The position numbers were made by a program, and so were the translations under genes. The notes beneath the pieces were generated by a model that did not search any database, was not told the DNA's origin, and worked only from the letters and a program-made list of their open reading frames with translations. A stretch of DNA of 41,959 bases from a virus, in the IMG/VR virus record IMGVR_UViG_3300047562_000455, positions 1-41,959 of that record, one strand, 5' to 3'. Below are positions 14,475 to 34,337 of this stretch, one piece after another. Within the stretch, counting starts at the first letter, position 1. Each line of letters starts with the position of its first letter.

Positions 14475-16149
14475 TCGCAGGCTCCATCGTATCATTCACA
14501 AAACGTTTCTTACTGGGTTGTGCTAATGGATTTGTCTGATTTTTACCCATGCCTGTTTGTGGTTCTGGTGCAACACCGGCACTTGCTGCTTTTAGACTTT
14601 CAGCAGGTGTAGGTGGTGGAACATTTACTGGCACATTGCCAGCACCCGGCATAGGATTACCAAACTCATCTGTTGGCATATTTTGAGATGCTTCTTGATT
14701 GATTTGCTCTAACATCTCTTCGATTTCTTCATCATCCATCTGAAGAATATTTCTGCGAACCCATTCCATAGAGTAATAGCGACCTACATATGGATCAATA
14801 AGCTGTAGTGTTTGAACACGATTTTGAAGAAGCTCTGCTTCTTTCAATTCTGTAAAATTGTTGTCTTTCTTGAAGTCGTACCACAGTTCTTCTTTGAATT
14901 CTTTCCATTCATCTTCGGTACAAATCTTCTTGAGAATACATTGTACTCTAAGAAGATCATCAAATAGAGTTGAGAATTTGTTACGAAGACGATTAACAAA
15001 CTTGGTAAACTTCAATTCATCTCTGGTAATTTCTGTTGTACGACCTAATGAGAATCCTTGTTGCTGTTCAAGTCGTGAGATAGGAACACCAAGAGCTTTG
15101 TAAAGCTTTTTTTCAAAGTACTTAACATCTTCCAATTCACCAAGGTTCATACCACCAGGAAGTGTTGTGATTTCTGTACCTTTACCACCTTCTCTACGTG
15201 GCAACCAAAAATCTTCAAGCATTGAAAGATGTTTGCGGTCGTCTTTGATTTCGCCTGTGCTGGAATCGTATACTAGTTTGTTACGATACTTGACCATAAC
15301 ATCACGCAAATATTGTTCGGCTTTGATTGTTGGCATATTACCAACGTCGATATAGAACACTCTGCGCTCAGGCGCGCGTGAGAGTCTGTAGATAACTGTT
15401 GCGTCTTCGACCATGCGAAGCTGATTGAGTGGCTTGATAGCTTTGTGTAGATAAGAGAGTACCATAGCTCTCTTAGAATCCATCAGACCTGAATTGACAT
15501 TTACAATAGCATCTAATGTGATCTTTGTACCAAGCTGTGAATGAGCACCAATCATACCTCTTTCATTGTAGAGGTAATATTCTTTAATCTGCTTGATGAC
15601 TTCCATTCCACTGTTTGGATCTTTTGTCTTTTGTACTTCGCGGATTTTGCGAATTCTGCGAGGATCAATGTATCTGATCTCTTGAATACCCTTCTGAGGC
15701 GACTTCTCATCAATGACAATATGATAGAATATTCTACCGTCAATGTACCATCTACGGAAAATATCATGTCCCATATTACCAAAATCAAGAAGCTTTAAAA
15801 TCTGATCAAATTCATCTCTGATCTTTTTCTTTACTGCATTAGATTCTTTGATTTCGTCTGTGATAAGTTCAACACCGCGTTCTTCATCATCATTAACAAT
15901 AGCTTCATTGACAATTTCATCTATAGCAGTTTCAAGTTCTGGCTGCATAGACATTTCACGATATCTTGTGATGAGTTCAATTTCATTACGAACAACACCA
16001 TCTAAGTCAACATATGTGCCATAGTAAGCACCCGACTGAATGGTTACAGCACCATCGTCGGTTGTTGGAATAGCAAACGATTTGTTACGTTCGTCTTCTT
16101 GCTGATTTTTCTTACGGCTTATTTCAAAACCGAAAAAGCTTACGGCCAT
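14461..16149 (-). CDS. 20: gp20 portal vertex protein
   Basis: The 562-residue protein (T4 gp20 is 524) forms the dodecameric portal through which DNA is packaged and to which the neck attaches. Diagnostic segments include GAYYGTYVDLDGVVRNEIEL, YREMSMQPELETAIDEIVNE and VQCILKKICTEDEWKEF, with QGFSLGRTTEITRDELKF in the typical place near the tunnel region. The Pro-rich tail (about 510-560) is variable. A CGGAGTG ribosome site precedes the ATG and a GC-rich hairpin lies just upstream (16168-16187). No exact late promoter was seen directly before it. Confidence 0.96.
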   Translation of the reverse strand: MAVSFFGFEISRKKNQQEDERNKSFAIPTTDDGAVTIQSGAYYGTYVDLDGVVRNEIELITRYREMSMQPELETAIDEIVNEAIVNDDEERGVELITDEIKESNAVKKKIRDEFDQILKLLDFGNMGHDIFRRWYIDGRIFYHIVIDEKSPQKGIQEIRYIDPRRIRKIREVQKTKDPNSGMEVIKQIKEYYLYNERGMIGAHSQLGTKITLDAIVNVNSGLMDSKRAMVLSYLHKAIKPLNQLRMVEDATVIYRLSRAPERRVFYIDVGNMPTIKAEQYLRDVMVKYRNKLVYDSSTGEIKDDRKHLSMLEDFWLPRREGGKGTEITTLPGGMNLGELEDVKYFEKKLYKALGVPISRLEQQQGFSLGRTTEITRDELKFTKFVNRLRNKFSTLFDDLLRVQCILKKICTEDEWKEFKEELWYDFKKDNNFTELKEAELLQNRVQTLQLIDPYVGRYYSMEWVRRNILQMDDEEIEEMLEQINQEASQNMPTDEFGNPMPGAGNVPVNVPPPTPAESLKAASAGVAPEPQTGMGKNQTNPLAQPSKKRFVNDTMEPANAQV

Positions 16150-22779: not shown

Positions 22780-23520
22780 TTATCCCATTATGAAATTTGG
22801 AGGTTCTTCGTAAGTATCTCGAATCAACTGTTCTATCTCTTTGATTTCAGCATCTGCTTCATTATAGATTTGTTGACCATTCATTGTGATACCACCCGGT
22901 AACTGCATACCACCAAACTTCTTCATATTGTTGCCCCATATTCTCTTGATATGTGCTGTTGTCAATCTCTTGAGCATACGATCATTCCAGACATCAGCAT
23001 AAGAATCCGGATCAACTATGATAAATCCTTCAATGATAAGATACTCACCGACTGAAGCCATGCCCCAATTCCAATCAAGATAAAGTTTGTCTGTGTGTCT
23101 ATTAAAGCGAATTGGTTGTTCACCTGAGAATAGCATGTCTAATGTTCTGATATGCTGCATAGTCAAGGCATAGTTTACATATGACACTGAGGTAAAATCA
23201 TAGAGTTCGTGTAAGCGAAGTTGATATCGCAAATCGAACATGTTAATATTGGCATTTGTTGTAGATACAGGAAATATTCGAGTAACACCAATGATGTTCT
23301 CTGTTATAGGAATATACCCATTTGTGATATTTTCCGCTGTAATTTGATGTTTCATGTACCAGCGTTCGACACCATCAAAATGGAAGTCTTGAAAATACTG
23401 CAATGCGGAATCTACACAGTCGTCAACTTGATCATCATCAACGTTTATGTTAATAACTGGATGACCCAGTTGTCTCAAACACCAATCTTTATGCTGTTCT
23501 CTTGTGGTAGGAATAGCCAT
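22780..23520 (-). CDS. 13: gp13 neck protein
   Basis: A 246-residue protein (T4 gp13 is 309) that binds the portal side of the neck. Evidence: N-terminal TREQHKDWCLRQLGHPVINI, then VDDCVDSALQYFQDFHFDG and ERWYMKHQI, and the central YLIIEGFIIVDPDSYADVWN with the ITMNGQQIYNEADAEIKEIE helix near the end, all typical of T4-like gp13. It is the first gene of the morphogenesis block, with an exact TATAAATA promoter (23560-23567) upstream. The divergent heptose operon begins 66 bases away on the other strand. Confidence 0.94.
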   Translation of the reverse strand: MAIPTTREQHKDWCLRQLGHPVININVDDDQVDDCVDSALQYFQDFHFDGVERWYMKHQITAENITNGYIPITENIIGVTRIFPVSTTNANINMFDLRYQLRLHELYDFTSVSYVNYALTMQHIRTLDMLFSGEQPIRFNRHTDKLYLDWNWGMASVGEYLIIEGFIIVDPDSYADVWNDRMLKRLTTAHIKRIWGNNMKKFGGMQLPGGITMNGQQIYNEADAEIKEIEQLIRDTYEEPPNFIMG

Positions 23521-23559: not shown

Positions 23560-23567
23560 TATTTATA
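23560..23567 (-). promoter_or_regulatory. T4-type late promoter for gp13-gp14-gp15-gp16-gp17
   Basis: Exact TATAAATA on the minus strand, 39 bases before the gp13 start codon, in the 66-base gap between the divergent gp13 and hldE-like genes. No convincing sigma70 pair is seen for the plus-strand genes in the same gap; a TATAAG hexamer at 23564-23569 with a TTGTAG 15 bases upstream is only a weak candidate. Confidence 0.85.
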
Positions 23568-23586
23568 AGAATTGAGGAATTACATT

Positions 23587-24786
23587 ATGATAGTTATCGG
23601 TGATTACATAAAAGACAAGTACATTTTTGGAACCAGCACAAGGCTCTCACCAGAAGCACCAGTTCCTGTGATAATACCCACACATGAAGAAGTTCGTCTT
23701 GGTGGTGCTTATAATGTAGTCAAAAATCTGCAAGCTTTTGGTGAAAATCCTCTATTCATACACAATCAAGATCAAGGAACGACTAAAACTCGCATCATTG
23801 CAAATGGTCACATTATCTGTCGCATAGACGATGAAGAGTATATTCCGTTTGTACCTGATCTGAATTTTGATCTTTCTCAGCACAAGTATGCTGTACTTTC
23901 AGACTATAACAAGGGCGTTCTGGACGATGCTCAGACTGTCATATGGAAACTCAATCTGGATGGCGTCAAAGTTTTGGTAGACCCCAAGAAAAGCTTTACT
24001 CACTATAGACATTCTTGGCTGATCAAAGCTAACAAGTCTGAGTATGAGTCTGCTATCGGTAGAAAATACTCATGGAACGAGTTCAGAGAATGTGCTGAAA
24101 TGCTGTGTGTCGAGTATGATTTTAAGTATCTGATCGTTACACTTGGCGCAGACGGTTATGCACTATATGATTATGAAAGAAACTCTTGTCGTTCTGAAAA
24201 AGGTGAAGAGCGTACAGTTCTTGATGTGACAGGCGCTGGTGATGTATTCATGGCAGCACTCGCATATTTTGTTCAGACTATGCCCGTAGAAAGAGCAGCA
24301 AGTCGTGCAAACATTCTAGCTGGTATTTCAGTCGGGCATATGGGCACTTATGTGTTGACAGAAAAAGACATTGAAACTGTATGTGCGAAACCAAACACCG
24401 TGTTTACCAATGGCTGCTTTGACATACTGCATCCTGGTCACATTCATCTACTCAAAGAGTCAAAAAAGCTTGGTCGCAGACTGATTGTCGGTATCAACTC
24501 AGATGCGTCAGTGCAGAAGATCAAGGGCTTTGACCGACCAATTCTAAAGCAGCATCAACGCAAGATTATGCTGGAAACGCTAGACATTGCAAATGAAGTG
24601 ATCATCTTTGATGAAGAGACGCCTTATGAACTGATCAAAAAGATCAGACCTGATATTATCACCAAGGGTGGTGATTATAAAATAGAAAATGTTGTGGGCA
24701 ATGACATTGCAAAAGTAGTGATCATACCTACTGTAGAGAACTATTCAACCACGAGAGTGATAAATGAGATTGTACGGAAGAGTTGA
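23587..24786 (+). CDS. hldE: Bifunctional heptose-7-phosphate kinase/heptose-1-phosphate adenylyltransferase (HldE-like)
   Basis: A 399-residue two-domain enzyme of ADP-heptose synthesis (E. coli HldE is 477). The N-terminal PfkB-type kinase has STRLSPEAPVPVI and RLGGAYNVVKNLQAFG, as in heptose kinases, and the PfkB signature DVTGAGD (about 213-219). The C-terminal cytidylyltransferase-like domain has TNGCFDILHPGHIHLL, with the nucleotide-binding HPGH at 282-285, and RPDIITKGGDYK. The ATG at 23587 is used because GAGGAA lies about eight bases before it; an upstream TTG at 23572 overlaps that site. It would phosphorylate heptose 7-phosphate and then adenylylate heptose 1-phosphate. The phosphatase GmhB and isomerase GmhA are not in the window. 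It overlaps the cupin gene by 23 bases. Confidence 0.9.
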   Translation: MIVIGDYIKDKYIFGTSTRLSPEAPVPVIIPTHEEVRLGGAYNVVKNLQAFGENPLFIHNQDQGTTKTRIIANGHIICRIDDEEYIPFVPDLNFDLSQHKYAVLSDYNKGVLDDAQTVIWKLNLDGVKVLVDPKKSFTHYRHSWLIKANKSEYESAIGRKYSWNEFRECAEMLCVEYDFKYLIVTLGADGYALYDYERNSCRSEKGEERTVLDVTGAGDVFMAALAYFVQTMPVERAASRANILAGISVGHMGTYVLTEKDIETVCAKPNTVFTNGCFDILHPGHIHLLKESKKLGRRLIVGINSDASVQKIKGFDRPILKQHQRKIMLETLDIANEVIIFDEETPYELIKKIRPDIITKGGDYKIENVVGNDIAKVVIIPTVENYSTTRVINEIVRKS

Positions 24787-25111
24787 TAAGTCTTGGGGTT
24801 ACGAAGATATCTTTGTGTCTACTGACGAATACTGCGGCAAATACCTTGTATTTAATCAAAAGGGTGATAAAACTACCATGCACTTTCACAAAGAGAAGAA
24901 AGAGACATGGAAAGTTGAACGAGGTCGTTTCATTGTGCGCTTCATTGATACCAATGATGGTAGAGAATTGGAAACCGTGATTGGTTCTGGTGATGTATGG
25001 ACAAATGAACCTCTGTTACCTCATCAGTTAGAAGCAATGGAAGATGATTCGTGTGTGTTAGAAATTTCAACACCAGACTCAGTTGAAGACAACTATAGGC
25101 TATACAGATGA
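24764..25111 (+). CDS. Small cupin protein, sugar-nucleotide pathway type
   Basis: A 115-residue single-domain cupin. The motif HFHKEKKETWKVERGRF (about 41-57) supplies the metal-binding His and Glu pattern, and a second motif region NEPLLPHQLEAMEDDS follows. It resembles the C-terminal cupin domain of mannose-6-phosphate isomerase/GDP-mannose pyrophosphorylase (WGYE near the start is typical), and small cupins of this kind often sit in surface-sugar clusters. The reaction is unknown: isomerase, epimerase or sugar sensing are possible. It overlaps hldE upstream and the epimerase gene downstream (ATGA), so the three plus-strand genes form one operon. Confidence 0.8.
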   Translation: MRLYGRVDKSWGYEDIFVSTDEYCGKYLVFNQKGDKTTMHFHKEKKETWKVERGRFIVRFIDTNDGRELETVIGSGDVWTNEPLLPHQLEAMEDDSCVLEISTPDSVEDNYRLYR

Positions 25112-25911
25112 AAGTATTAGTAACAGGTTCAGAAGGTTTCATTGGTCGTAACCTTGTTGCTGCTCTCAAAAACCGCGGCGATGATGTATTGGAATTTGAT
25201 ACCAAGAACTATCGACCAGAAGAGTTACCTGCGCTCTATAATATAACTGAAGTTAAGATGATCTATCATCTAGGTGCTATTTCTAGCACACTTGAAACAA
25301 ATCTTGATGCTCTATATCGACACAATGTAGAGTTCTCACTTGATCTGTTCAATACAGCTATCAGTCATAGAATTCCCGTTGTGTATACCACATCTGCATC
25401 TGTCTTTGGTAACACAATGAAAGACGGACAGTACATCTACAATCCTCTGAACTACTACGCAACAACCAAGATGCTGACTGAGATGTGGTTGTTTCAGAAC
25501 AAAAGCAAGTTTCATGCCCTATCAGTACCTAGACTGTTCAATGTCTACGGTGCAGATGAACGCAAAGCTGATATGTCTACTAGCCCAATCTGCAAGTTCA
25601 CTCAACAAGCGAAAGAGACAGGTGTGATTACCTTATTTAAGGGATCACACAACATGATCCGTGACTTTATTGCTATTGAAGATGTGCTTGAAGTTCTTAT
25701 AGATATTCCAAAATGGAGCTTCTATGATGTTGGCACTTGTTTACCTATCAGCTTTCAAGATGTTGCTGAAATGATAGCTGACAAGTATAATGCGACTATC
25801 AAGTATGTGCCGATGCCAGATCATATGCGACCGTCATATCAGTACTACACCAAAGCAAGACAGAATGTTATTTGGTTTAAAACTGTAGAACAGTGGTTGA
25901 AGTCTCAATAA
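25108..25911 (+). CDS. NAD(P)-dependent sugar-nucleotide epimerase, HldD-like
   Basis: A 267-residue extended short-chain dehydrogenase/epimerase. It has the Rossmann motif GSEGFIG (7-13), IYHLGAISSTLET (the HLGA-SST pattern is characteristic of ADP-heptose 6-epimerases), TSASVFG with the catalytic Ser/Thr, and the active-site YxxxK as YATTK (Y117, K121). The short length compared with E. coli HldD (310) comes mainly from the C-terminal half. With the HldE-like gene two genes upstream, the simplest reading is ADP-D-glycero-D-manno-heptose to the L-glycero epimer, but other NDP-sugars cannot be excluded. It ends only four bases from the convergent sulfotransferase gene. Confidence 0.85.
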   Translation: MKVLVTGSEGFIGRNLVAALKNRGDDVLEFDTKNYRPEELPALYNITEVKMIYHLGAISSTLETNLDALYRHNVEFSLDLFNTAISHRIPVVYTTSASVFGNTMKDGQYIYNPLNYYATTKMLTEMWLFQNKSKFHALSVPRLFNVYGADERKADMSTSPICKFTQQAKETGVITLFKGSHNMIRDFIAIEDVLEVLIDIPKWSFYDVGTCLPISFQDVAEMIADKYNATIKYVPMPDHMRPSYQYYTKARQNVIWFKTVEQWLKSQ

Positions 25912-25915
25912 GATA

Positions 25916-26704
25916 TCAACGATATTGATACTGCTTTTCTATCTCAACAAATCTGTTATACAATTCTTCACCTAAAACTTCTCTTGCAGCTTTTGATGTT
26001 TTATTAACAGAAGATCGGATTTTGTGAAGATCAGGAAATCCCCAAGCACCTAAATCATCAGAGGCTTCTTGTTTGATGTTGTTCATATCATAGTCATATG
26101 AAGGCAAATCCAAGAAGCTTTCTATTCTTCTTATCTCTCTCAAAGGATCGGCAACAAAATCATCATAGTCTACAAGAAGCAGCCTGTTTGATGCTGTTTG
26201 TCTAGCCATCACAACAGATTCCATACAATCTTTTGTCATGTTGAACCACATTTCACCCATGCGATTTTCATCTGTGTCTGGCAATCCTTTAGAAGCAAGT
26301 CTTCTGTCAAACTCATATGGATATTTTCTAATGAGTGTTAGCCAAGATGCCATAATGCTAGGCAAATCACGAACAGTTGCGACGATCTTTATTTCTTTAC
26401 CAAAGACAATCGTTGAAGCATTCATATTTTTACCCCAACCGCGATGCTTATCAATTATGATCTCTTCACTTCTGTGTTCCCAAGCAGAGTTGATCATTGC
26501 TCTTGATATGTTTGTGAGTTGTTCGGGAATAGGATTTGCTACTACTTCCTCAAGTTTGTGAAATGCTTCCTGATTGTGTAGTAATAATCCAAGCAGTGGT
26601 GATGTTGGTGTGACATACACTTTGGGATTTTGATTGAGAATCGAACATAATACTGTGCTACCTGTTCTAGGCAGACCTGAAAGAAAATGAAAAGTTTTTG
26701 TCAT
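25916..26704 (-). CDS. Sulfotransferase family protein
   Basis: A 262-residue protein. The N-terminal PAPS 5'-phosphosulfate loop FLSGLPRTGSTVLCSIL (about 7-23) is diagnostic of cytosolic/tyrosylprotein-type sulfotransferases. A 3'-phosphate-binding motif is visible at VATVRDLPSIMASW, and IDKHRGWGKN and LLVDYDDFVADPLREIRRIE match conserved later blocks, the latter being a common sulfotransferase helix. It transfers sulfate from PAPS to a hydroxyl or amine; the acceptor could be a sugar, lipid or protein. It lies beside glycosyltransferases and heptose genes, which favours a glycan acceptor. The ribosome site is weak. Confidence 0.88.
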   Translation of the reverse strand: MTKTFHFLSGLPRTGSTVLCSILNQNPKVYVTPTSPLLGLLLHNQEAFHKLEEVVANPIPEQLTNISRAMINSAWEHRSEEIIIDKHRGWGKNMNASTIVFGKEIKIVATVRDLPSIMASWLTLIRKYPYEFDRRLASKGLPDTDENRMGEMWFNMTKDCMESVVMARQTASNRLLLVDYDDFVADPLREIRRIESFLDLPSYDYDMNNIKQEASDDLGAWGFPDLHKIRSSVNKTSKAAREVLGEELYNRFVEIEKQYQYR

Positions 26705-26725
26705 TCTGTAATAGAACTTTCATGA

Positions 26726-27499
26726 TTATATATTGCTGTGTTGCAGTATTTCATTTTCATTCCAAACTTGTTTCCAGTTACTTGGCTCATCTCTATTTGA
26801 TTCATCAGAGATATGCCAAGCAAGAGTTTCCATTGGATAGATCAATCTTGTTTCCTGTTCGCGCCAGATTCTGTTTATGATCTTATCTTCTGGTGCACCA
26901 TTGATTTCCCACATGTATGCTTGCTCTTTGAGAATACTATCATACTTGATCGATCCTTCTTTACTCATCAAGAAAGTTGCTGTTGTGTGAAACGCTGATC
27001 GCCAATATCCTTTCGGTCCTTTGATGATATAGCTAGGATTCATAGCACCCACACTATGATATCTATGAGGATGATTCATAGGAAATACTGCATAGTCACC
27101 TGGCCAAAAAACTTTCATGTACTCACACATATCTATCATGTCATCAATCGCTGATGTTACATGAAGATAATCATCTTCAACTAGATACACATAGTCACAA
27201 TCTTGTTCTTTGAGCCAGTGATATTGTGTCTTGAAGTTATTCTTCTTACCAGAATCAATGAACTCACATTTCACACCGTGCATTGCAACCATCAACTGCA
27301 TCTGATTTCTCTGTTCTTCTGTAGAACTATCATCATGAATGCTGAATATGATTTCATTCTTGCTTGCTGCAATTGTCTTGAGCAAGCTGTTTAGGCAAGT
27401 GAACATGATCGTAGGCTTGTCAGCATCTACTATTCTTGGTTCACCCCAAAGACTATAGACTGTACCGCATGTCTTTACAGCAATTGCAACTTTCTTCAT
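26726..27499 (-). CDS. GT-A type glycosyltransferase
   Basis: A 257-residue protein with a GT2-like pattern: an N-terminal strand VAIAVKTCG, LLKTIAASKNEIIFSIHDDSS, and YVYLVEDDYLHV, where E108-D109-D110 would be the metal/nucleotide-sugar DXD motif. Later blocks (KGPKGYWRSAFHTTATFLMS; WEINGAPEDKIINRIW) resemble acceptor-binding parts of phage and cyanobacterial glycosyltransferases. The ATG at 27497-27499 overlaps the stop of the TPR-transferase gene by one base; a GTG one codon earlier is an alternative. The sugar donor is unknown. It belongs to the methyltransferase-TPR transferase-this gene-sulfotransferase series. Confidence 0.83.
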   Translation of the reverse strand: MKKVAIAVKTCGTVYSLWGEPRIVDADKPTIMFTCLNSLLKTIAASKNEIIFSIHDDSSTEEQRNQMQLMVAMHGVKCEFIDSGKKNNFKTQYHWLKEQDCDYVYLVEDDYLHVTSAIDDMIDMCEYMKVFWPGDYAVFPMNHPHRYHSVGAMNPSYIIKGPKGYWRSAFHTTATFLMSKEGSIKYDSILKEQAYMWEINGAPEDKIINRIWREQETRLIYPMETLAWHISDESNRDEPSNWKQVWNENEILQHSNI

Positions 27500-28815
27500 C
27501 ACATATTTTCCTTAACATGATTGATAGCAAGATCAATCGTTTCTTGCCAGTTTTTGTGCTTCTTCTGACAAAAGACTTTTGTGTTCTTACCATACCAATA
27601 ACTATGATTGTCTTCAGCGAGAGGTACCCATGTGTAGTAAGCTGCAATAGGTGGAAGAATGACTGTCTTAACATCCATTGCTGCTGCTGAATGTGCAGTG
27701 CTTGTACAGCTTGTTACATTGAATGATGCAAGATACTGGATAGCAAGTGTATCTTGCCAGCTTTCAATTTCAACATCAATCAATCTGCTGTCTGCTTGCT
27801 TCTGATCTATCTGTAAAGAAACCAGAGGTAGATTGAATTTGGACAATCCTTCAAGAAGTAAATCTTTATCTACAACTCGGTGTAAATCTTGATCATAGTA
27901 TGGATTGCCACTCCAACGAACAGTCATGAACTTCTCAGGCAGCAAAGCTTTCCACTTATTCAGATACTCATGTGTTGGCTTCAAATAAGGTCCATTCCAT
28001 AGTTGATGTGTATCAAGATCAAGATAGATAGGCAAAGACATCGACTCTATGTAGACATACTCTTCGGTAGGATCAAGTTGTACAGAACTATGAATAGCAT
28101 TGTATTCATTAGCAACAAATAGGTCAACCAAGTCTTTTCTAAAACCGATCCAGATTGCTTTTTGCCCACGCTTTTTTAGTTCGCTCATAAAGCGAATATT
28201 GATCAGTTCATCGCCTATACCTGCTTCCGCATAGACAAGAAGAGTTTTGTCTGTGAGTTCTCCTGTCCATTTCAGATAAGGTTTCTTTGCTGGTGGCCAG
28301 ATACCAATACCTCTACCACCCAAGATCATGTTGCGAATACCCGACTTGAAATTGCCGCGTTCCATCTGAAATGTGCCCATATTATACATGATGCGTTTCT
28401 TCATTTCTTCTGGTATGTCTTTATCAAGCAGTTCAGTTTGAATCTCATATGACTTGACTGAATCACCAAGCAGATAGTATGAGAAAGATTCTTCCATCTT
28501 CATATCACCGTCTTTTGGATTTTGTTCTATGTTGATTTGAAGATAGTCTAGTGCTTTTTGAGGCTCGTTCATATGATTGTAGACTTTAGCCAAGTTACAA
28601 CGAATCTGATACATCTGCTGATTATTTGCTATTGCTGCACACTTCTTCAGCATCCGAAGTGAACTTTCATAGTCTTTTGCCTTCTCGTAGAGCATACCTA
28701 GTTCATCGTACTGCTCTAGATTATTGGCATACTTTTCAAATGTCTTCAATAGACTACGCGCCACTTCAAGTTCGTCTACTTGCTTGAGAAATTTTACAAC
28801 CGCTGTGAGGTGCAT
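27499..28815 (-). CDS. TPR protein fused to GT9/GT41-like (heptosyltransferase-like) domain
   Basis: A 438-residue two-part protein. Residues 1-190 are tandem TPR-like helices (for example LGMLYEKAKDYESSLRMLKK, NLAKVYNHMNEPQKALDYLQ). Residues about 190-435 form a GT-B transferase: YAEAGIGDELINIRFMSEL (195-213) resembles the first GT9 motif, VRWSGNPYYDQDLHRV (299-314) matches the W-G-N-P...D..R block, and SCTSTAHSAAAMDVKTVIL (369-387) matches the ADP-heptose-binding TS..H.A motif, followed by WY....VFCQ. The family includes ADP-heptose:LPS transferases and TPR-bearing transferases that act on proteins. The two ADP-heptose synthesis genes nearby make ADP-heptose the favoured donor, by inference. 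Confidence 0.8.
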   Translation of the reverse strand: MHLTAVVKFLKQVDELEVARSLLKTFEKYANNLEQYDELGMLYEKAKDYESSLRMLKKCAAIANNQQMYQIRCNLAKVYNHMNEPQKALDYLQINIEQNPKDGDMKMEESFSYYLLGDSVKSYEIQTELLDKDIPEEMKKRIMYNMGTFQMERGNFKSGIRNMILGGRGIGIWPPAKKPYLKWTGELTDKTLLVYAEAGIGDELINIRFMSELKKRGQKAIWIGFRKDLVDLFVANEYNAIHSSVQLDPTEEYVYIESMSLPIYLDLDTHQLWNGPYLKPTHEYLNKWKALLPEKFMTVRWSGNPYYDQDLHRVVDKDLLLEGLSKFNLPLVSLQIDQKQADSRLIDVEIESWQDTLAIQYLASFNVTSCTSTAHSAAAMDVKTVILPPIAAYYTWVPLAEDNHSYWYGKNTKVFCQKKHKNWQETIDLAINHVKENM

Positions 28816-28819
28816 ACTA

Positions 28820-29368
28820 TTATTCCTTTACCACTTTCCAAACCACATGTGCTTCAATCGTTGTATTCAGTGCTTCACGAAACAATCGTTCGTTTTGCTC
28901 TGGTGTATTTTTCTTGATTATCTCTTCGTAGAATGGATCAATGACATAATCATAGCTGACAATCTCAAAGTCAACATCAAACATCAGACCAAGAGTTGAT
29001 GTTGCTGAACCTATAGCAATGTCTCTTTGATTGAATGTCTTAGAGAAAAGTCTAAGCCCTTCTACTGTGATTGGGCGTTTATGAGTGGGATCATTGTAGA
29101 AGACTTCATGCCCGTGATGTGGCACACGAATATCTATAATCGCATCATGCTTACACACACGATAGAGTTCTTTGAGAAGATGAAAATAACCATCACCTAG
29201 ATGTTCTAGGATGTGATGTGCAACGACTTTGCTTACTGAGGAATCTTCAAAAGGCAGTCTATCTGTTTCAAGATTACATAGATGATCTGGTTTGCAGTTA
29301 GGATCGTTGTCTACATTGAGGTAGCCATTGAAATGCTTATAGCCACCACCAAGATTGATGTTTATCAT
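28820..29368 (-). CDS. SAM-dependent methyltransferase (class I)
   Basis: A 182-residue methyltransferase. It starts MININLGGGYKHFNGYLNVD, where LGGG is a motif I variant and the Asp at the end of the second strand fits SAM ribose binding. DRLPFEDSSVSKVVAHHILE and LLKELYRVCKHDAIIDIRVP are the typical motif II-III region of Methyltransf_11-type enzymes that act on sugars or small molecules in surface-polysaccharide clusters. The start at 29368 follows a GGAG ribosome site; the frame is open five codons further. The final codons run into the TPR-transferase ribosome site, so the two are coupled. Confidence 0.85.
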   Translation of the reverse strand: MININLGGGYKHFNGYLNVDNDPNCKPDHLCNLETDRLPFEDSSVSKVVAHHILEHLGDGYFHLLKELYRVCKHDAIIDIRVPHHGHEVFYNDPTHKRPITVEGLRLFSKTFNQRDIAIGSATSTLGLMFDVDFEIVSYDYVIDPFYEEIIKKNTPEQNERLFREALNTTIEAHVVWKVVKE

Positions 29369-29413
29369 GATATAGGTCTCCACACAAGAATATACTAGTA
29401 TATAGTTGTGCTT

Positions 29414-30601
29414 TTAGTAGTCACCTGATGAGATTGCTGTTGTGTGATAAGTACCAGCAGAAACTAGTTTCCAGTTAGTTAATGAACCAATCTGAACTGG
29501 TGATGATTTAGAAACAATAGTGCCATCACCGAGACGACCAGAACCATTACCACCCCAAGTCCATAATGTACCATCAGTTTTTATTGCTGCTGTGTGATAA
29601 CCGCCGGCAGATACTAGTTTCCAGTCAGTCAATGATCCAATCTGAACTGGTGATGATTTAGGAACAACAGTACCATCACCGAGACGACCATTAGTATTAC
29701 GACCCCAAGCCCAAAGAGTACCATCAGTCTTTATTGCTACTGTGTGATTACCACCACCAGAAACTTGTTTCCAGTCAGTCAATGATCCAATCTGAACTGG
29801 TGATGATCTACGAGTAATAGTACCATCACCAAGTTGACCATTATCATTAAAACCCCAAGTCCAAAGTGTGCCATCTGTCTTGATTGCTAATGTAAAAGAT
29901 CCACTAAAAACTGTGCGAGAAACAACAACTTGTTTCCAGTTAGTCAATGAACCAATCTGAACTGGTGATGATTTATAAACAACAGTACCATCACCAAGTG
30001 CACCATAAAAATTCTGACCCCAAGTCCATAATGTACCATCAGTCTTTATTGCTGCTGTATGACGACCACCAGCAGAAACTTGTTTCCAATTTGTTAATGT
30101 GCCAACTTGAATCGGAGATGATTTAGATACAGTAGTACCATCACCAAGTGTACCATCAAAATTATTACCCCAAGTCCATAATGTACCATCAGTCTTTATT
30201 GCTGCTGTGTAACTACCACCAGCAGCAACTTGCTTCCAGTTAGTCAATGAACCAATCTGGACTGGTGATACTTTGTCAGTAGCAACACCGCCAGTGCCAT
30301 CACCAAGTTGACCAGAACCATTCTGACCCCAAGTCCAAAGTGTGCCATCTGTCTTGATTGATGTTGTATGTTCATAACCAGCAGAAAGTAGTTTCCAGTT
30401 AGTTAATGAACCAATTTGAACTGGTGATGATTTGTCAACAATAGTACCATCACCGAGACGGCCATCATCTCCTTCGCCCCAAGCATACAGTCCTTTCTCA
30501 TAGAAAGTATCAGCAGACACAAACATATCATCCATGTCAACATAAGTTGTTGATGGTGTGCCGTCTGAGTTTAGTATTGCGAATCTGTAGTTTGTGGTCA
30601 T
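29414..30601 (-). CDS. RCC1-repeat seven-bladed propeller protein, copy 1
   Basis: A 395-residue protein of which nearly all is RCC1-type repeat, about 50 residues each, with seven WxWGxNxxGxLGDGT blocks, enough for a closed seven-bladed beta-propeller. Each repeat also has SSPVQIGSLTNWK and SAGxxHTAAIKTDGTLW. A short N-terminal cap (about 35 residues, MTTNYRFAILNSDGTPSTTY) may attach it to a virion part. Blade four to five contains an insertion (SRTVFSGSFT). There is no signal peptide. The location between surface-sugar genes and fibre genes indicates a tail-fibre tip or other virion adhesin. It is a close paralogue of the two other RCC1 genes here. Confidence 0.85.
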   Translation of the reverse strand: MTTNYRFAILNSDGTPSTTYVDMDDMFVSADTFYEKGLYAWGEGDDGRLGDGTIVDKSSPVQIGSLTNWKLLSAGYEHTTSIKTDGTLWTWGQNGSGQLGDGTGGVATDKVSPVQIGSLTNWKQVAAGGSYTAAIKTDGTLWTWGNNFDGTLGDGTTVSKSSPIQVGTLTNWKQVSAGGRHTAAIKTDGTLWTWGQNFYGALGDGTVVYKSSPVQIGSLTNWKQVVVSRTVFSGSFTLAIKTDGTLWTWGFNDNGQLGDGTITRRSSPVQIGSLTDWKQVSGGGNHTVAIKTDGTLWAWGRNTNGRLGDGTVVPKSSPVQIGSLTDWKLVSAGGYHTAAIKTDGTLWTWGGNGSGRLGDGTIVSKSSPVQIGSLTNWKLVSAGTYHTTAISSGDY

Positions 30602-30610
30602 GTTACTCTC

Positions 30611-31816
30611 TTAAATGTATCCGTCAAGGATTGCTGCTGTGTGATTACCACCACCAGAAACTTGTTTCCAGTTAGTCAATGAACCAATCTGAACTGGTGA
30701 TGATTTGTCAACAATAGTACCATCACCAAGACGACCGCTAGCATTATTACCCCAAGCCCATAAAGTACCATCTGTCTTGATTGCTGCTGTGTGACTACCA
30801 CCAGCACCAGCAGCAACTAGTTTCCAGTTTGTTAAGGATCCAATCTGAACTGGAGATGATCTATGAGTAACAGTACCATCACCAAGTTGACCAGAAATAT
30901 TACGACCCCAAGTCCATAAGGTACCATCTGTTTTAATTGCTGCTACATGATCTTCGCCAGTCGCAACTTGTTTCCAGTTAGTTAATAATCCAACTTGAAT
31001 TGGTGATGACTTACTAACAATAGTACCATCACCAAGTTGACCATCTTGACCAAGACCCCAAGTCCATAAAGTACCATCAATTTTGACAGCAACTGTGTAA
31101 CCTCTGCCAGTCGCAACTTGTTTCCAGTTAGTCAATGAACCAATCTGAATTGGTGATAATCTATCAGTAGTAAGATTATTACCAAGTTGACCATCATCAT
31201 TACGACCCCAAGACCACATAGTGCCGTCTGTTTTAACTGCTGCTGTGTGATTAAACCCAGCAGAAACTAGTTTCCAGTTAGTTAATAAACCAATCTGAAC
31301 TGGTGATGATCTGTTTGTTGTAGTACCATCACCAAGACGACCGTTAGTATTATCACCCCAAGCCCAAAGGGTACCATCAGTCTTTATTGCTGCTGTGTGA
31401 CCACTATCAGCATCAACTTGTTTCCAGTTAGTCAGTGATCCAATCTGAACTGGTGATGATTTAGAAACAATAGTGCCATCACCGAGACGACCATCAGCAC
31501 CATTGCCCCAAGTCCATAAAGTACCATCAGTCTTGATTGCTGCTGAATGGGTACCACCACCAGACATTTGTTTCCAATTCGTCAATAATCCAATCTGAAC
31601 AGGTGATGATTTATCAACAATAGTACCATCACCAAGTTGACCGACATTATTACGACCCCAAGTCCAAATCCCCGGAGTAGTTCTACCAGGTATCAATTCC
31701 GGATACAGATCAAGCAAGTAATCTTTGCTGACATAACGCTCACCGAGATCCTGTGTATTAGGACCACCATCAACATTGACTATCTTGAATCCAGTATTTG
31801 GACCTGTTACAGACAT
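30611..31816 (-). CDS. RCC1-repeat seven-bladed propeller protein, copy 2
   Basis: A 401-residue protein with a 45-residue N-terminal cap (MSVTGPNTGFKIVNVDGGPN, then YVSKDYLLDLYPELI) followed by seven RCC1 blades. The blade 4 core deviates (GQLGNNLTTDRLSPIQIG), while the others keep LGDGT. Blade-to-blade differences concentrate in the loop between WG and LGDG and just before SSPVQIG. The cap differs from that of copy 1 but shares the idea of a short strand plus a YVS/DMDD element. It lies nine bases upstream of copy 1 and three bases after the DUF4376-like gene, so all are cotranscribed. Confidence 0.85.
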   Translation of the reverse strand: MSVTGPNTGFKIVNVDGGPNTQDLGERYVSKDYLLDLYPELIPGRTTPGIWTWGRNNVGQLGDGTIVDKSSPVQIGLLTNWKQMSGGGTHSAAIKTDGTLWTWGNGADGRLGDGTIVSKSSPVQIGSLTNWKQVDADSGHTAAIKTDGTLWAWGDNTNGRLGDGTTTNRSSPVQIGLLTNWKLVSAGFNHTAAVKTDGTMWSWGRNDDGQLGNNLTTDRLSPIQIGSLTNWKQVATGRGYTVAVKIDGTLWTWGLGQDGQLGDGTIVSKSSPIQVGLLTNWKQVATGEDHVAAIKTDGTLWTWGRNISGQLGDGTVTHRSSPVQIGSLTNWKLVAAGAGGSHTAAIKTDGTLWAWGNNASGRLGDGTIVDKSSPVQIGSLTNWKQVSGGGNHTAAILDGYI

Positions 31817-31819
31817 TTG

Positions 31820-32467
31820 TTATTCCAATACGATTGCTTTAAGTTCTTGTTCTGTCTGAGCAGCATTGATTGCATTATGAGTTGTGAGTTCCCAATCAAA
31901 GCAAGTCTGAATGTGTGTTTTGCCTGCAAAGACAATCTGTTCCATATCATTCTTTGTTACACTGATCCATGTCTCAGGAAACTTCCAGTTGATTGTTTCT
32001 GTGTCTGCCATAGCAAGATATGTATCCAAGAATATCTGTCTACCTTCTCTTGTCGTATCAACTGTTACTTCCGTACTTTGAATTGTGATCTTGAAACCAC
32101 CTACTTCTTTTTTGTAGCGATTGTTCGTCACAGTAGTTTTCAATGTGCCTTTGATCTGTTCAAGAGGTGAGGAAACAGCGTTGTATGTCTCTGTTGCTTC
32201 GTTGTTAGCATATGAATAGTATGGTCCAGCAAGCTGCTCATAGATGCCATCATGTGCTGGCACATTTGATGTTATTACAGGAAATATTTCAAGCCCTTCA
32301 CCAAGAGCAAGATAGTTGCTTTCTGGTGCAATAGGAGGAATAGTGTACTGCTCAGTGATATCGCCCGCTTCAAGAAGATCATTGATTTCTCTCTGAAACA
32401 TTCTTTGTCTCCATGGCATTGGACCAAGAAGAACTGTTTGCTGATCTTTAACGATTATGTAGTTCAT
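31820..32467 (-). CDS. DUF4376-like tail fibre accessory protein, copy 1
   Basis: A 215-residue protein. The C-terminal half shows a pattern typical of DUF4376-type phage proteins: NNRYKKEVGGFKITI, INWKFPETWISVTKND, then THIQTCFDWELTTHNAINAA and QTEQELKAI. The N-terminus YIIVKDQQTVLLGPMPWRQR is a fibre-associated start also seen in marine phages. Members lie beside fibre genes and are thought to be virion or assembly accessory proteins. It is interleaved between RCC1 copies 2 and 3, which suggests a specific relation to one of them. The function is inferred from context. Confidence 0.65.
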   Translation of the reverse strand: MNYIIVKDQQTVLLGPMPWRQRMFQREINDLLEAGDITEQYTIPPIAPESNYLALGEGLEIFPVITSNVPAHDGIYEQLAGPYYSYANNEATETYNAVSSPLEQIKGTLKTTVTNNRYKKEVGGFKITIQSTEVTVDTTREGRQIFLDTYLAMADTETINWKFPETWISVTKNDMEQIVFAGKTHIQTCFDWELTTHNAINAAQTEQELKAIVLE

Positions 32468-32479
32468 GTTTTTCCTCTA

Positions 32480-33655
32480 TTATGATAATTCTCTGTATGT
32501 AATTGCTGTTGTGTGATTACCACCACCAGCACCACCAGCAGCAACTAGTTTCCAGTTAGTCAATGATCCAATTTGAACTGGTGATGATTTAGAAACAACA
32601 GTACCATCACCAAGTTGGCCATATTGATTACGACCCCAAGACCATAGAGTGCCATCAGTCTTGATTGCTACTGTGTGGGCATCACCAGCAGATACTAGTT
32701 TCCAGTTAGTCAATGATCCAATCTGGACTGGTGATGATTTATAAACAACAGTACCATCACCAAGTTGACCAGAAATATTTAAACCCCAAGCCCATATAGT
32801 ACCATCAGTTTTAACTGCTACTGTATGGGCAGAACCAGCATCAACTTGTTTCCAGTTAGTTAATGAACCAATCTGAACTGGAGATGATTTATCAAGAATG
32901 GTGTCATCACCAAGTTGACCAAAACCATTTTCACCCCAAGTCCATAGTGTACCATCTGTCTTGACTGCTGCTGTGTGATCATTACCAGCAGATACTTGTT
33001 TCCAATTCGTCAATAATCCAATTTGAACTGGTGATGATTTAGAAACAACAGTACCATCACCAAGACGACCAGAAGCACCATTACCCCAAGTCCATAGAGT
33101 ACCATCTGTCTTGACTGCTGCTGTGTGTTGATTACCAGCAGATACTTGTTTCCAATTCGTCAATAATCCAATTTGAACTGGTGATGATTTATTAACAACA
33201 GTACCATCACCAAGTGCGCCACCGATATTATAACCCCAAGACCATAGAGTACCATCAGTCTTAATTGCTGCTGTGTGATACAGACCAGCAGAAACCAGTT
33301 TCCAGTTAGTCAATGATCCAATTTGAACTGGTGATGATTTAGAAACAACAGTACCATCACCAAGTTGACCATTAATATTACCACCCCAAGTCCATAGAGT
33401 ACCATCAGTCTTGACTGCTGCTGTGTGATCCAGACCAGCAGAAACCAGTTTCCAGTTTGTTAAGGATCCAATCTGAACTGGAGATGATTTATTATCAATA
33501 GTGCCATCACCAAGACGACCAAAAGTATTACGACCCCAAGCCCATACAGCATCACCAACAAAACGCTCAATCAAATCCGCATCTGTGATGAACTTCTCAT
33601 CCAGATCAACATACTGCTCTAACTCTTGATCGTAGTATTTGTAGTTGCTAGTCAT
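32480..33655 (-). CDS. RCC1-repeat seven-bladed propeller protein, copy 3
   Basis: A 391-residue protein with a short N-terminal cap (MTSNYKYYDQELEQYVDLDE, then KFITDADLIERFVGD) and seven RCC1 blades, each with WxWG, LGDGT (LGDDT in blade 5), SSPVQIG and HTAAVKTDG. The cap again has an F/YITDADL-type element like the YVSKDYLL of copy 2, so the caps may share a docking function. The start ATG overlaps the stop of the S74 chaperone protein (ATGA), and the gene is probably read from the late promoter at 34330-34337. Confidence 0.85.
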   Translation of the reverse strand: MTSNYKYYDQELEQYVDLDEKFITDADLIERFVGDAVWAWGRNTFGRLGDGTIDNKSSPVQIGSLTNWKLVSAGLDHTAAVKTDGTLWTWGGNINGQLGDGTVVSKSSPVQIGSLTNWKLVSAGLYHTAAIKTDGTLWSWGYNIGGALGDGTVVNKSSPVQIGLLTNWKQVSAGNQHTAAVKTDGTLWTWGNGASGRLGDGTVVSKSSPVQIGLLTNWKQVSAGNDHTAAVKTDGTLWTWGENGFGQLGDDTILDKSSPVQIGSLTNWKQVDAGSAHTVAVKTDGTIWAWGLNISGQLGDGTVVYKSSPVQIGSLTNWKLVSAGDAHTVAIKTDGTLWSWGRNQYGQLGDGTVVSKSSPVQIGSLTNWKLVAAGGAGGGNHTTAITYRELS

Positions 33656-34302
33656 CTATTCTTCAATTCTTCTACTTGCTTGCTCAGGTCTTTGACTGCT
33701 TCAATCAGAACAGCAATCAGACCATTGTAGTTAACAGACTTCTCATCACCGACAAGTTCAGGCAGCACCTTCTCGACTTCTTGAGCGATAACACCAAGCG
33801 ATGGTAAACCGTTATCTTTCCAATCAAAGCGAACACCATTCAGTAAGTTAACAAGAGTTACTGCATCTGTGATCTGAGTGATGTTTGTCTTCTTGTTGAT
33901 GTCTGATGTTGAGTTGAATACAGTTGATGATAGTGTGCCTGTATCTACATTGAATGTCAGCTTAGTAGATGCGACATTGATAGATGATGCTGTACCAGAT
34001 GTGGTTGTTGTAAATGTGATGTATTGAAGTGGTGTTACGCTTGATTGATCTGTTATTGTTACTGAGCCACCACCACCACCACCAATCGCACCCCAAGCTG
34101 TAGCGTTTCTTCCTTCAAAGCTACCTGTTTCAGAGTTAAAACGAATAAGACCTTGTTCTGCTGTTGGTCTACTAGCAGTGTCCCCAACAGGCAATTTAAC
34201 CGCACCAGATGTGACACGAACAATATTATCGCCGCCAACATAATCTATGCGATTGGTACCTGCTGAATCAAAATGTACATTTGCGACTTTTAATATTGAC
34301 AT
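33652..34302 (-). CDS. Short fibre protein with C-terminal S74 intramolecular chaperone domain
   Basis: A 216-residue protein. Residues 1-75 are a fibre-type head (RPTAEQGLIRFNSETGSFEG is a motif of T4-like fibre/virion proteins). After a Gly-rich hinge (GGGGGG at 74-79) and a beta-rich Thr/Ser part, residues about 131-216 are a peptidase S74/ICA chaperone: SDINKKTNI with the likely catalytic Ser133 and Lys138, then GVIAQEVEKVLPELV and YNGLIAVLIEAVKDLSKQVE. In the family this domain trimerises a fibre and cleaves itself off just before the Ser. An exact late promoter lies 27 bases upstream. Confidence 0.88.
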   Translation of the reverse strand: MSILKVANVHFDSAGTNRIDYVGGDNIVRVTSGAVKLPVGDTASRPTAEQGLIRFNSETGSFEGRNATAWGAIGGGGGGSVTITDQSSVTPLQYITFTTTTSGTASSINVASTKLTFNVDTGTLSSTVFNSTSDINKKTNITQITDAVTLVNLLNGVRFDWKDNGLPSLGVIAQEVEKVLPELVGDEKSVNYNGLIAVLIEAVKDLSKQVEELKNR

Positions 34303-34329: not shown

Positions 34330-34337
34330 TATTTATA
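34330..34337 (-). promoter_or_regulatory. T4-type late promoter for the S74 fibre and RCC1 genes
   Basis: Exact TATAAATA on the minus strand, 27 bases before the start codon at 34302. It overlaps the stop region of the 66-residue gene upstream. Confidence 0.85.

Follow-up and report, generated by a model that had tools for sequence, protein, structure and literature searches.

A cupin encoded between HldE- and HldD-like enzymes as a putative phosphoheptose isomerase of a T4-like phage

How would a phage that carries HldE- and HldD-like genes obtain the heptose phosphate on which such enzymes act, and on what might the resulting ADP-heptose be spent? The question is raised by IMG/VR record IMGVR_UViG_3300047562_000455, a 41,959-base viral contig (analyzed over its full length and referred to here as the window) from a T4-like aquatic myovirus, whose major capsid protein is 66% identical to that of Pelagibacter phage Mosig and ~64% identical to those of cyanophages, and whose portal protein shows 52–56% identity to those of Synechococcus phages. 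Between a neck gene (22780-23520, minus strand) and the tail-fibre genes are found two convergent gene sets, which meet at 25911/25916. The plus-strand set has the order hldE-cupin-hldD, with overlaps of 23 nucleotides (hldE/cupin) and 4 nucleotides (cupin/hldD), and the minus-strand set runs leftwards from 34302 through fibre and RCC1-repeat genes, a methyltransferase-like gene, a TPR-bearing transferase, a GT-A-like open reading frame (ORF) and a sulfotransferase, with gaps of -4 to 30 nucleotides. The original prediction for this locus, made from the sequence alone, had described the HldE-like, HldD-like and convergent TPR transferase genes, all of which are confirmed by profiles, motifs and a structure model. 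The interval it delimited also holds the cupin, the sulfotransferase and the possible GT-A-like ORF, none of which it named, and its end, at 29368, falls within the methyltransferase-like ORF (28820-29383).

We propose, with a probability of roughly 0.55 for the explanation as a whole, that hldE-cupin-hldD would make ADP-heptose, with the cupin standing in for GmhA, and that the minus-strand genes, as a late cassette, would decorate fibre or RCC1 proteins.

The hldE-cupin-hldD operon

The hldE gene (23587-24786, plus strand) was assigned, by profiles and motifs, as a fused heptose-7-phosphate kinase and heptose-1-phosphate adenylyltransferase with a compact kinase half. Its ATG at 23587 has GAGGAA upstream, and an in-frame TTG at 23572 is a possible alternative start. 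The protein combines a PfkB kinase half (NxxE, GAGD) with a cytidylyltransferase-like half (HxGH), and the motifs GGA, NxxE, GAGD, HxGH and YSTT are all present and nearly all invariant in five relatives; the kinase residues, whose loss would have spoken against the original prediction, are thus retained. Judging from where the alignment breaks, the kinase half is ~30 amino acids shorter than that of bacterial HldE, as is also the case in the phage relatives. As HldE models are the best matches, even though the scores lie below their cut-offs, we refer to this enzyme as HldE-like.

The hldD-like gene (25108-25911, plus strand), a putative ADP-heptose 6-epimerase, matches TIGR02197 at E=4.5e-50, and its best match in the PDB is E. 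coli HldD (1eq2, E=4e-25). The SDR triad is represented by S96, Y117 and K121. The second catalytic lysine of HldD (K178 in E. coli) has a counterpart in K153 with a shift of one column, and the alignment column in question is Lys in 68 of 75 cases. Relative to the bacterial HldE-HldD pathway, the window shares the order and motifs of fused HldE and the catalytic residues of HldD, but has a shorter kinase half, lacks GmhA and GmhB and carries a cupin inside the operon. The original prediction that the phage makes ADP-heptose is consistent with the two encoded enzymes, which fit such synthesis.

The cupin (24764-25111, plus strand) is a protein of only 115 amino acids, in which K26, H40, H42, K45, E47, H87, E100 and D109 do not vary among 40 phage relatives. 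When a profile built from ten cupins was compared with the PDB, D-lyxose isomerases came first (2y0o, E=2.7e-8; 7nzo, E=6.5e-7). In the alignment to 7nzo, for which the chain numbering was corrected by 24 residues, the pairs are K26/K62, H40/H75, H42/H77, K45/K86, E47/E88, H87/H143 and E100/E156. The seven partners on the isomerase side are among the eight residues that hold D-mannose or D-fructose in TsLI (PMC8378251), such that the phage cupin carries 7 of the 8 sugar-contacting residues of a D-lyxose/D-mannose isomerase. The HxH, E and H metal ligands of isomerase-type cupins correspond to H40, H42, E47 and H87, and the structure model of the phage protein has a predicted local distance difference test score (pLDDT) of 96.8. 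K26 and K45, on the other hand, were not shown by cupin alignments to oxalate decarboxylase. The likeness to the D-lyxose/D-mannose isomerases (TsLI, 7nzo-7nzq, and the B. subtilis enzyme, 2y0o) thus extends to the cupin fold and to the YCxK, HxH, KxE, H and E residues, whereas those enzymes are longer (170–204 amino acids) and the phage protein is encoded in a context of nucleotide-sugar synthesis.

The manno-configured aldose/2-ketose pairs lyxose/xylulose, mannose/fructose and heptose/sedoheptulose undergo the same chemistry at C1-C2. From its residues and profile matches, we infer the cupin to be an aldose-ketose isomerase of manno configuration. Because of the genes that accompany it, its substrate is read as sedoheptulose-7-phosphate, in which case the cupin would replace GmhA. 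RefSeq cyanophage records name the same protein 'cysteine dioxygenase'.

Linkage of the cupin and the remaining pathway steps

To place these genes in their wider context, we considered IMG/VR loci fetched by HldE (80), by the cupin (77 new) and by the TPR transferase (80), with neighbours found using profiles built in this analysis. The contigs are not independent, and thinning at 80% identity leaves 67 distinct HldE sequences. The cupin is found at most 4 kb from hldE in 72 of 80 HldE loci, and in all 45 of those with at least 3 kb present on both sides. Conversely, the HldE kinase is found within 4 kb in 75 of 77 cupin loci, and lies on the same strand as the cupin in 146 of 147 cases. A search of 44 hldE/cupin phage records detected no GmhA (SIS fold, TIGR00441); the sole weak SIS match was in S-SRM01, a record with no HldE match. 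Within the fetched DNA, a GmhB-type HAD phosphatase is found in 51 loci and a distinct small HAD in 22, never both together, with 74 loci having neither. Records whose clusters lack a GmhB-type HAD contain one elsewhere in 6 of 24 cases, with no match in the window record, which is one of the 24. The original prediction had left both GmhA and GmhB to the host or to other parts of the genome; for GmhA, the cupin in the operon is the better candidate, while for GmhB, supply by the host or from elsewhere is still what we propose for this genome.

The arrangement resembles the lipopolysaccharide (LPS) cluster of cyanophages P-SSM2, S-SM2 and S-SSM7 (T4-GC 304, 305, 307 and 308), whose co-occurrence was noted by Sullivan et al. 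2010 (PMC3037559). In both, an adenylyltransferase, a kinase, the cupin (as 'cysteine dioxygenase') and a nucleotide-sugar epimerase are found together. The kinase and adenylyltransferase are, however, separate genes in that cluster and fused in the window, and P-SSM2 adds a carbamoyltransferase and a small HAD annotated as phosphoheptose isomerase. This last protein (YP_214542.1, at 15119-15463 of locus L004), which starts MSKRYCIDIDGTICTP, has the DIDGT motif of a HAD and is not a SIS-fold GmhA, and the same name recurs on other cyanophage records. Two loci binned as Neomarinimicrobiota metagenome-assembled genome (MAG) RS350, L249 and L250, consist of phage DNA that carries the hldE-hldD-cupin-gmhB set, and L248 and L251 (Marinoscillum and a MAG labelled Rickettsiales, a doubtful label) share a common gene order around a lone cupin.

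According to the proposed mechanism, the two units would be transcribed separately, with the plus-strand unit making ADP-L-glycero-beta-D-manno-heptose. In the place of GmhA, the cupin would convert sedoheptulose-7-phosphate to D-glycero-D-manno-heptose-7-phosphate, which the kinase half of HldE would phosphorylate at C1. A GmhB-like phosphatase, supplied by the host or encoded elsewhere in the genome, and encoded in the cluster itself in many relatives, would take off the 7-phosphate, after which the adenylyltransferase half of HldE would add AMP and HldD would epimerise C6. The ADP-heptose might be used by the TPR transferase, by a host or other phage transferase acting on LPS, or by both. 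More broadly, the ADP-heptose pathway of aquatic phages may be a streamlined one: a 115-residue cupin resembling lyxose/mannose isomerases would displace GmhA non-orthologously, and in many of these phages either of two HAD phosphatases would serve the GmhB step, so that ADP-heptose could be drawn from a pentose-phosphate intermediate even if the host LPS lacks heptose. This generalization is tentative, and we place it at somewhat less than even odds.

The TPR transferase and its tail-fibre cassette

The original prediction had the TPR transferase (27499-28815, minus strand) spend this ADP-heptose, on the strength of GT9-type motifs. The structure model (pLDDT 92.7) shows TPR helices at 3-169, followed from ~180 by a transferase half of alpha/beta type, in keeping with a TPR plus GT-B architecture, and the protein carries conserved GxGD (199-202) and SCTSxAH (369-375) motifs, the S-C-T-S-x-A-H block being conserved in 31 relatives. 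Where the C-terminal motif of GT9, D-[ST]-x-x-x-H, has Asp, however, 30 of 31 relatives have Cys (Cys370), with T371 and H375 kept, and Pfam GT9 (PF01075) gave no match in the window and only two among the 31 relatives, at E 0.006-0.1. A PDB sequence and profile search with the transferase half returned TPR matches only; in one pairwise comparison, hhalign finds the half remotely GT9-like (probability 85%, E 6.5e-6). When structures were compared, the top Foldseek matches were SPY and OGT of GT41, which share the placement of TPR N-terminal to GT-B, but at 8–12% identity and TM-scores of 0.2–0.4.

TPR-containing glycosyltransferases of Azospirillum and other bacteria are also alike, and an A. 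oryzae homologue, 22% identical, can be aligned across 95% (E=1e-8). The flagellin O-glycosyltransferase FlmG resembles the phage protein in architecture, with an N-terminal TPR and a C-terminal GT-B half, but requires pseudaminic acid and modifies flagellin (PMC7591256), whereas the phage protein is found with RCC1 and fibre genes. Since FlmG, built in this way, depends on pseudaminic acid, the donor is not settled by motifs of GT9 type. Heptose is a possible donor for the TPR transferase, and a protein acceptor, as originally suggested, is reasonable.

The gene company of the TPR transferase points to fibre proteins. RCC1-repeat ORFs are found in 66 of 80 TPR-transferase loci (same strand for 199 of 199 ORFs) and sulfotransferases in 63 of 80 (66 of 66). 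By comparison, hldE is present in 9 of the 59 loci having 8 kb downstream, which were sampled independently of hldE, and of 37 whole records, 24 have no HldE match, the 240-kb S-SRM01 genome among them, while one of the 13 matches (BUCT-ZZ01) is marginal. In locus L168, at 41% identity on the window's own branch and fetched independently, the cassette again has RCC1/fibre genes on one side and the neck gene on the other, but hldE is absent there. On the TPR-transferase tree, hldE presence is nonetheless clustered, with 7 changes against a shuffled mean of 18.2 (0 of 500 shuffles as low), and hldE is frequent on the window's branch, yet many of the rows there were fetched through hldE. An argument for independence of the two genes from linkage counts alone was dropped, since the tree shows hldE clustered by branch. 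Where both are found, they lie on opposite strands in 28 of 33 loci. A second GT9-like protein, in which the Asp is kept, tracks hldE (5 of 12 loci of the TPR-transferase set with hldE, 1 of 68 without) and is a better candidate for a phage heptosyltransferase, although it is not found in the window. This protein (GGAGR...GCDSxGQHxA, 315–400 amino acids) is seen at L004 11090-12199, L006 6245-7192 and L336-L339. A pairing of the heptose operon with the TPR transferase is thus possible but unsupported as a rule, and the transferase probably belongs to a separate, late tail-fibre cassette with the RCC1/fibre genes and sulfotransferases.

The remaining members of this cassette, all on the minus strand, are a sulfotransferase (Sulfotransfer_3, PF13469, E=6.8e-15) at 25916-26704, a probable GT-A-like glycosyltransferase at 26726-27502, the methyltransferase-like protein (PF08241, E=7e-5) at 28820-29383 and, upstream, the RCC1-repeat/fibre genes (29414-34302; RCC1 match), among which RCC1-repeat genes stand in tandem at 29414-33655. 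The GT-A-like ORF was read from its VEDDY and WHIS motifs and has no confident family match, only a weak one to the phrog_854 glucosyltransferase (E=0.0056); it is conserved in 24 loci. In some phages, the TPR transferase is fused to the methyltransferase of the cassette (L018 13282, L030, L032 15272 and L003 8281-9996). The cassette would most likely attach a glycan, which would be sulfated as well, to fibre or RCC1-repeat proteins, with RCC1 proteins being possible acceptors of sulfated glycans.

As for timing, the T4-type late promoter core, TATAAATA, is found six times in the window (5792, 7235, 8772, 13548, 23560 and 34330; consensus matches only), all on the minus strand, as compared to 2.2 expected on both strands. 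The site at 34330-34337 is ~28 nucleotides ahead of the gene that opens the fibre/TPR unit (34302), while that at 23560-23567 would serve the divergent neck gene and not hldE; none of the six precedes hldE. A scan of the region for sigma-70 promoters gave no more matches than chance. Taken at face value, these sites suggest that the fibre/TPR cassette is late and that the heptose operon is not.

Weighing the explanations

Several results weigh against ADP-heptose synthesis through the cupin and should be kept in mind. The HldE-like protein scores 187 bits with TIGR02198 (cut-off 345), 157 with TIGR02199 (181.5) and 296 with its best match, the HldE equivalog model NF008454 (521; E=5e-88), none of which reaches the curated cut-off, owing to sequence divergence and the ~30-residue gap in the kinase half, and the HldD-like protein, at 170.6 bits, does not reach the TIGR02197 cut-off of 274.6. 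TsLI D163 lacks an exact partner in the cupin, the invariant D109 being two columns off. With Foldseek, many cupins match the cupin model equally and isomerases are not singled out; Lyx_isomer is matched only weakly by individual phage cupins (36 of 40 reach E<0.1, the best being 2e-5); and a larger, broader cupin profile ranked oxalate decarboxylase above lyxose isomerase. No phosphatase was seen in the window. Most phage records are fragments and, therefore, the absence of GmhA from them is no proof. In bacteria, each of 7 genomes with the cupin has HldE-like domains, with true GmhA missing in 4 and present in 3, and GmhA is also missing from ~4 of the 59 HldC-bearing genomes of one family, at least one of these (G334) being without the cupin too. 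As exclusion between cupin and GmhA in cells is thus only suggestive, it is not counted as strong support.

Alternatively, the cupin might be a later tailoring enzyme or a dioxygenase and no isomerase, with GmhA coming from the host. The RefSeq name and the functional diversity of cupin folds would agree with this, yet the seven invariant sugar-isomerase contacts, including the K26 and K45 unseen in oxalate decarboxylase alignments, the near-obligate linkage to hldE and the failure to find GmhA in the records searched make it an unlikely reading. Somewhat more doubtful is a role for the TPR transferase as a heptosyltransferase, by which phage ADP-heptose would be transferred to LPS or to a virion protein, with GmhA and GmhB coming from the host. 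This reading draws on the proximity of hldE in many phages, if usually on the opposite strand, on the clustering along the tree, with its sampling caveat, and on the remote GT9 likeness, but is countered by the loci and records without hldE, L168 among them, by Cys370 and by the different GT9-like protein that tracks hldE. An operon for ADP-hexose, in which the cupin would act on fructose-6-phosphate/mannose-6-phosphate and the HldE and HldD relatives on hexose phosphates, seems improbable. The cupin does bear a distant likeness to mannose-6-phosphate isomerases (23 of 40 members match PF01050, and 7zvy is a fold match), and cyanophages carry type II phosphomannose isomerase genes (PMC9602691). 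Nonetheless, heptose enzymes are the best family matches of both neighbours of the cupin, and the HldD-type lysine used at C6 is kept, C6 epimerisation requiring a heptose. Finally, Sullivan et al. 2010 raised the idea that cyanophage LPS genes are stuffer DNA (PMC3037559); that the heptose genes are such DNA, or decayed cellular genes with no phage function, is very hard to reconcile with frames that are intact, motifs that are conserved and a linkage that hardly varies among numerous, diverse contigs.

That phages carry heptose genes, and that these co-occur, was already known (PMC3037559), and rfaE had been described in pelagimyophages (PMC7029224). A near-obligate cupin with isomerase residues, a fused HldE and alternative phosphatases appear to be new, as no description was found in the literature searched, which covered a cupin sedoheptulose isomerase and phage ADP-heptose auxiliary genes. 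Nor did any earlier suggestion turn up that the cupin of the cyanophage cluster is an isomerase. If the proposal is true, the first step of heptose synthesis would have a second, unrelated enzyme, overlooked by annotation as a 'cysteine dioxygenase', and a one-enzyme test would be at hand for the set of LPS genes whose role the 2010 work left undecided (PMC3037559). The cyanophage case would be especially pointed because cyanobacterial LPS is reported to lack heptose and 3-deoxy-D-manno-octulosonic acid (KDO) (PMC4515613). On that account, cyanophages would make a sugar that their hosts keep out of their LPS.

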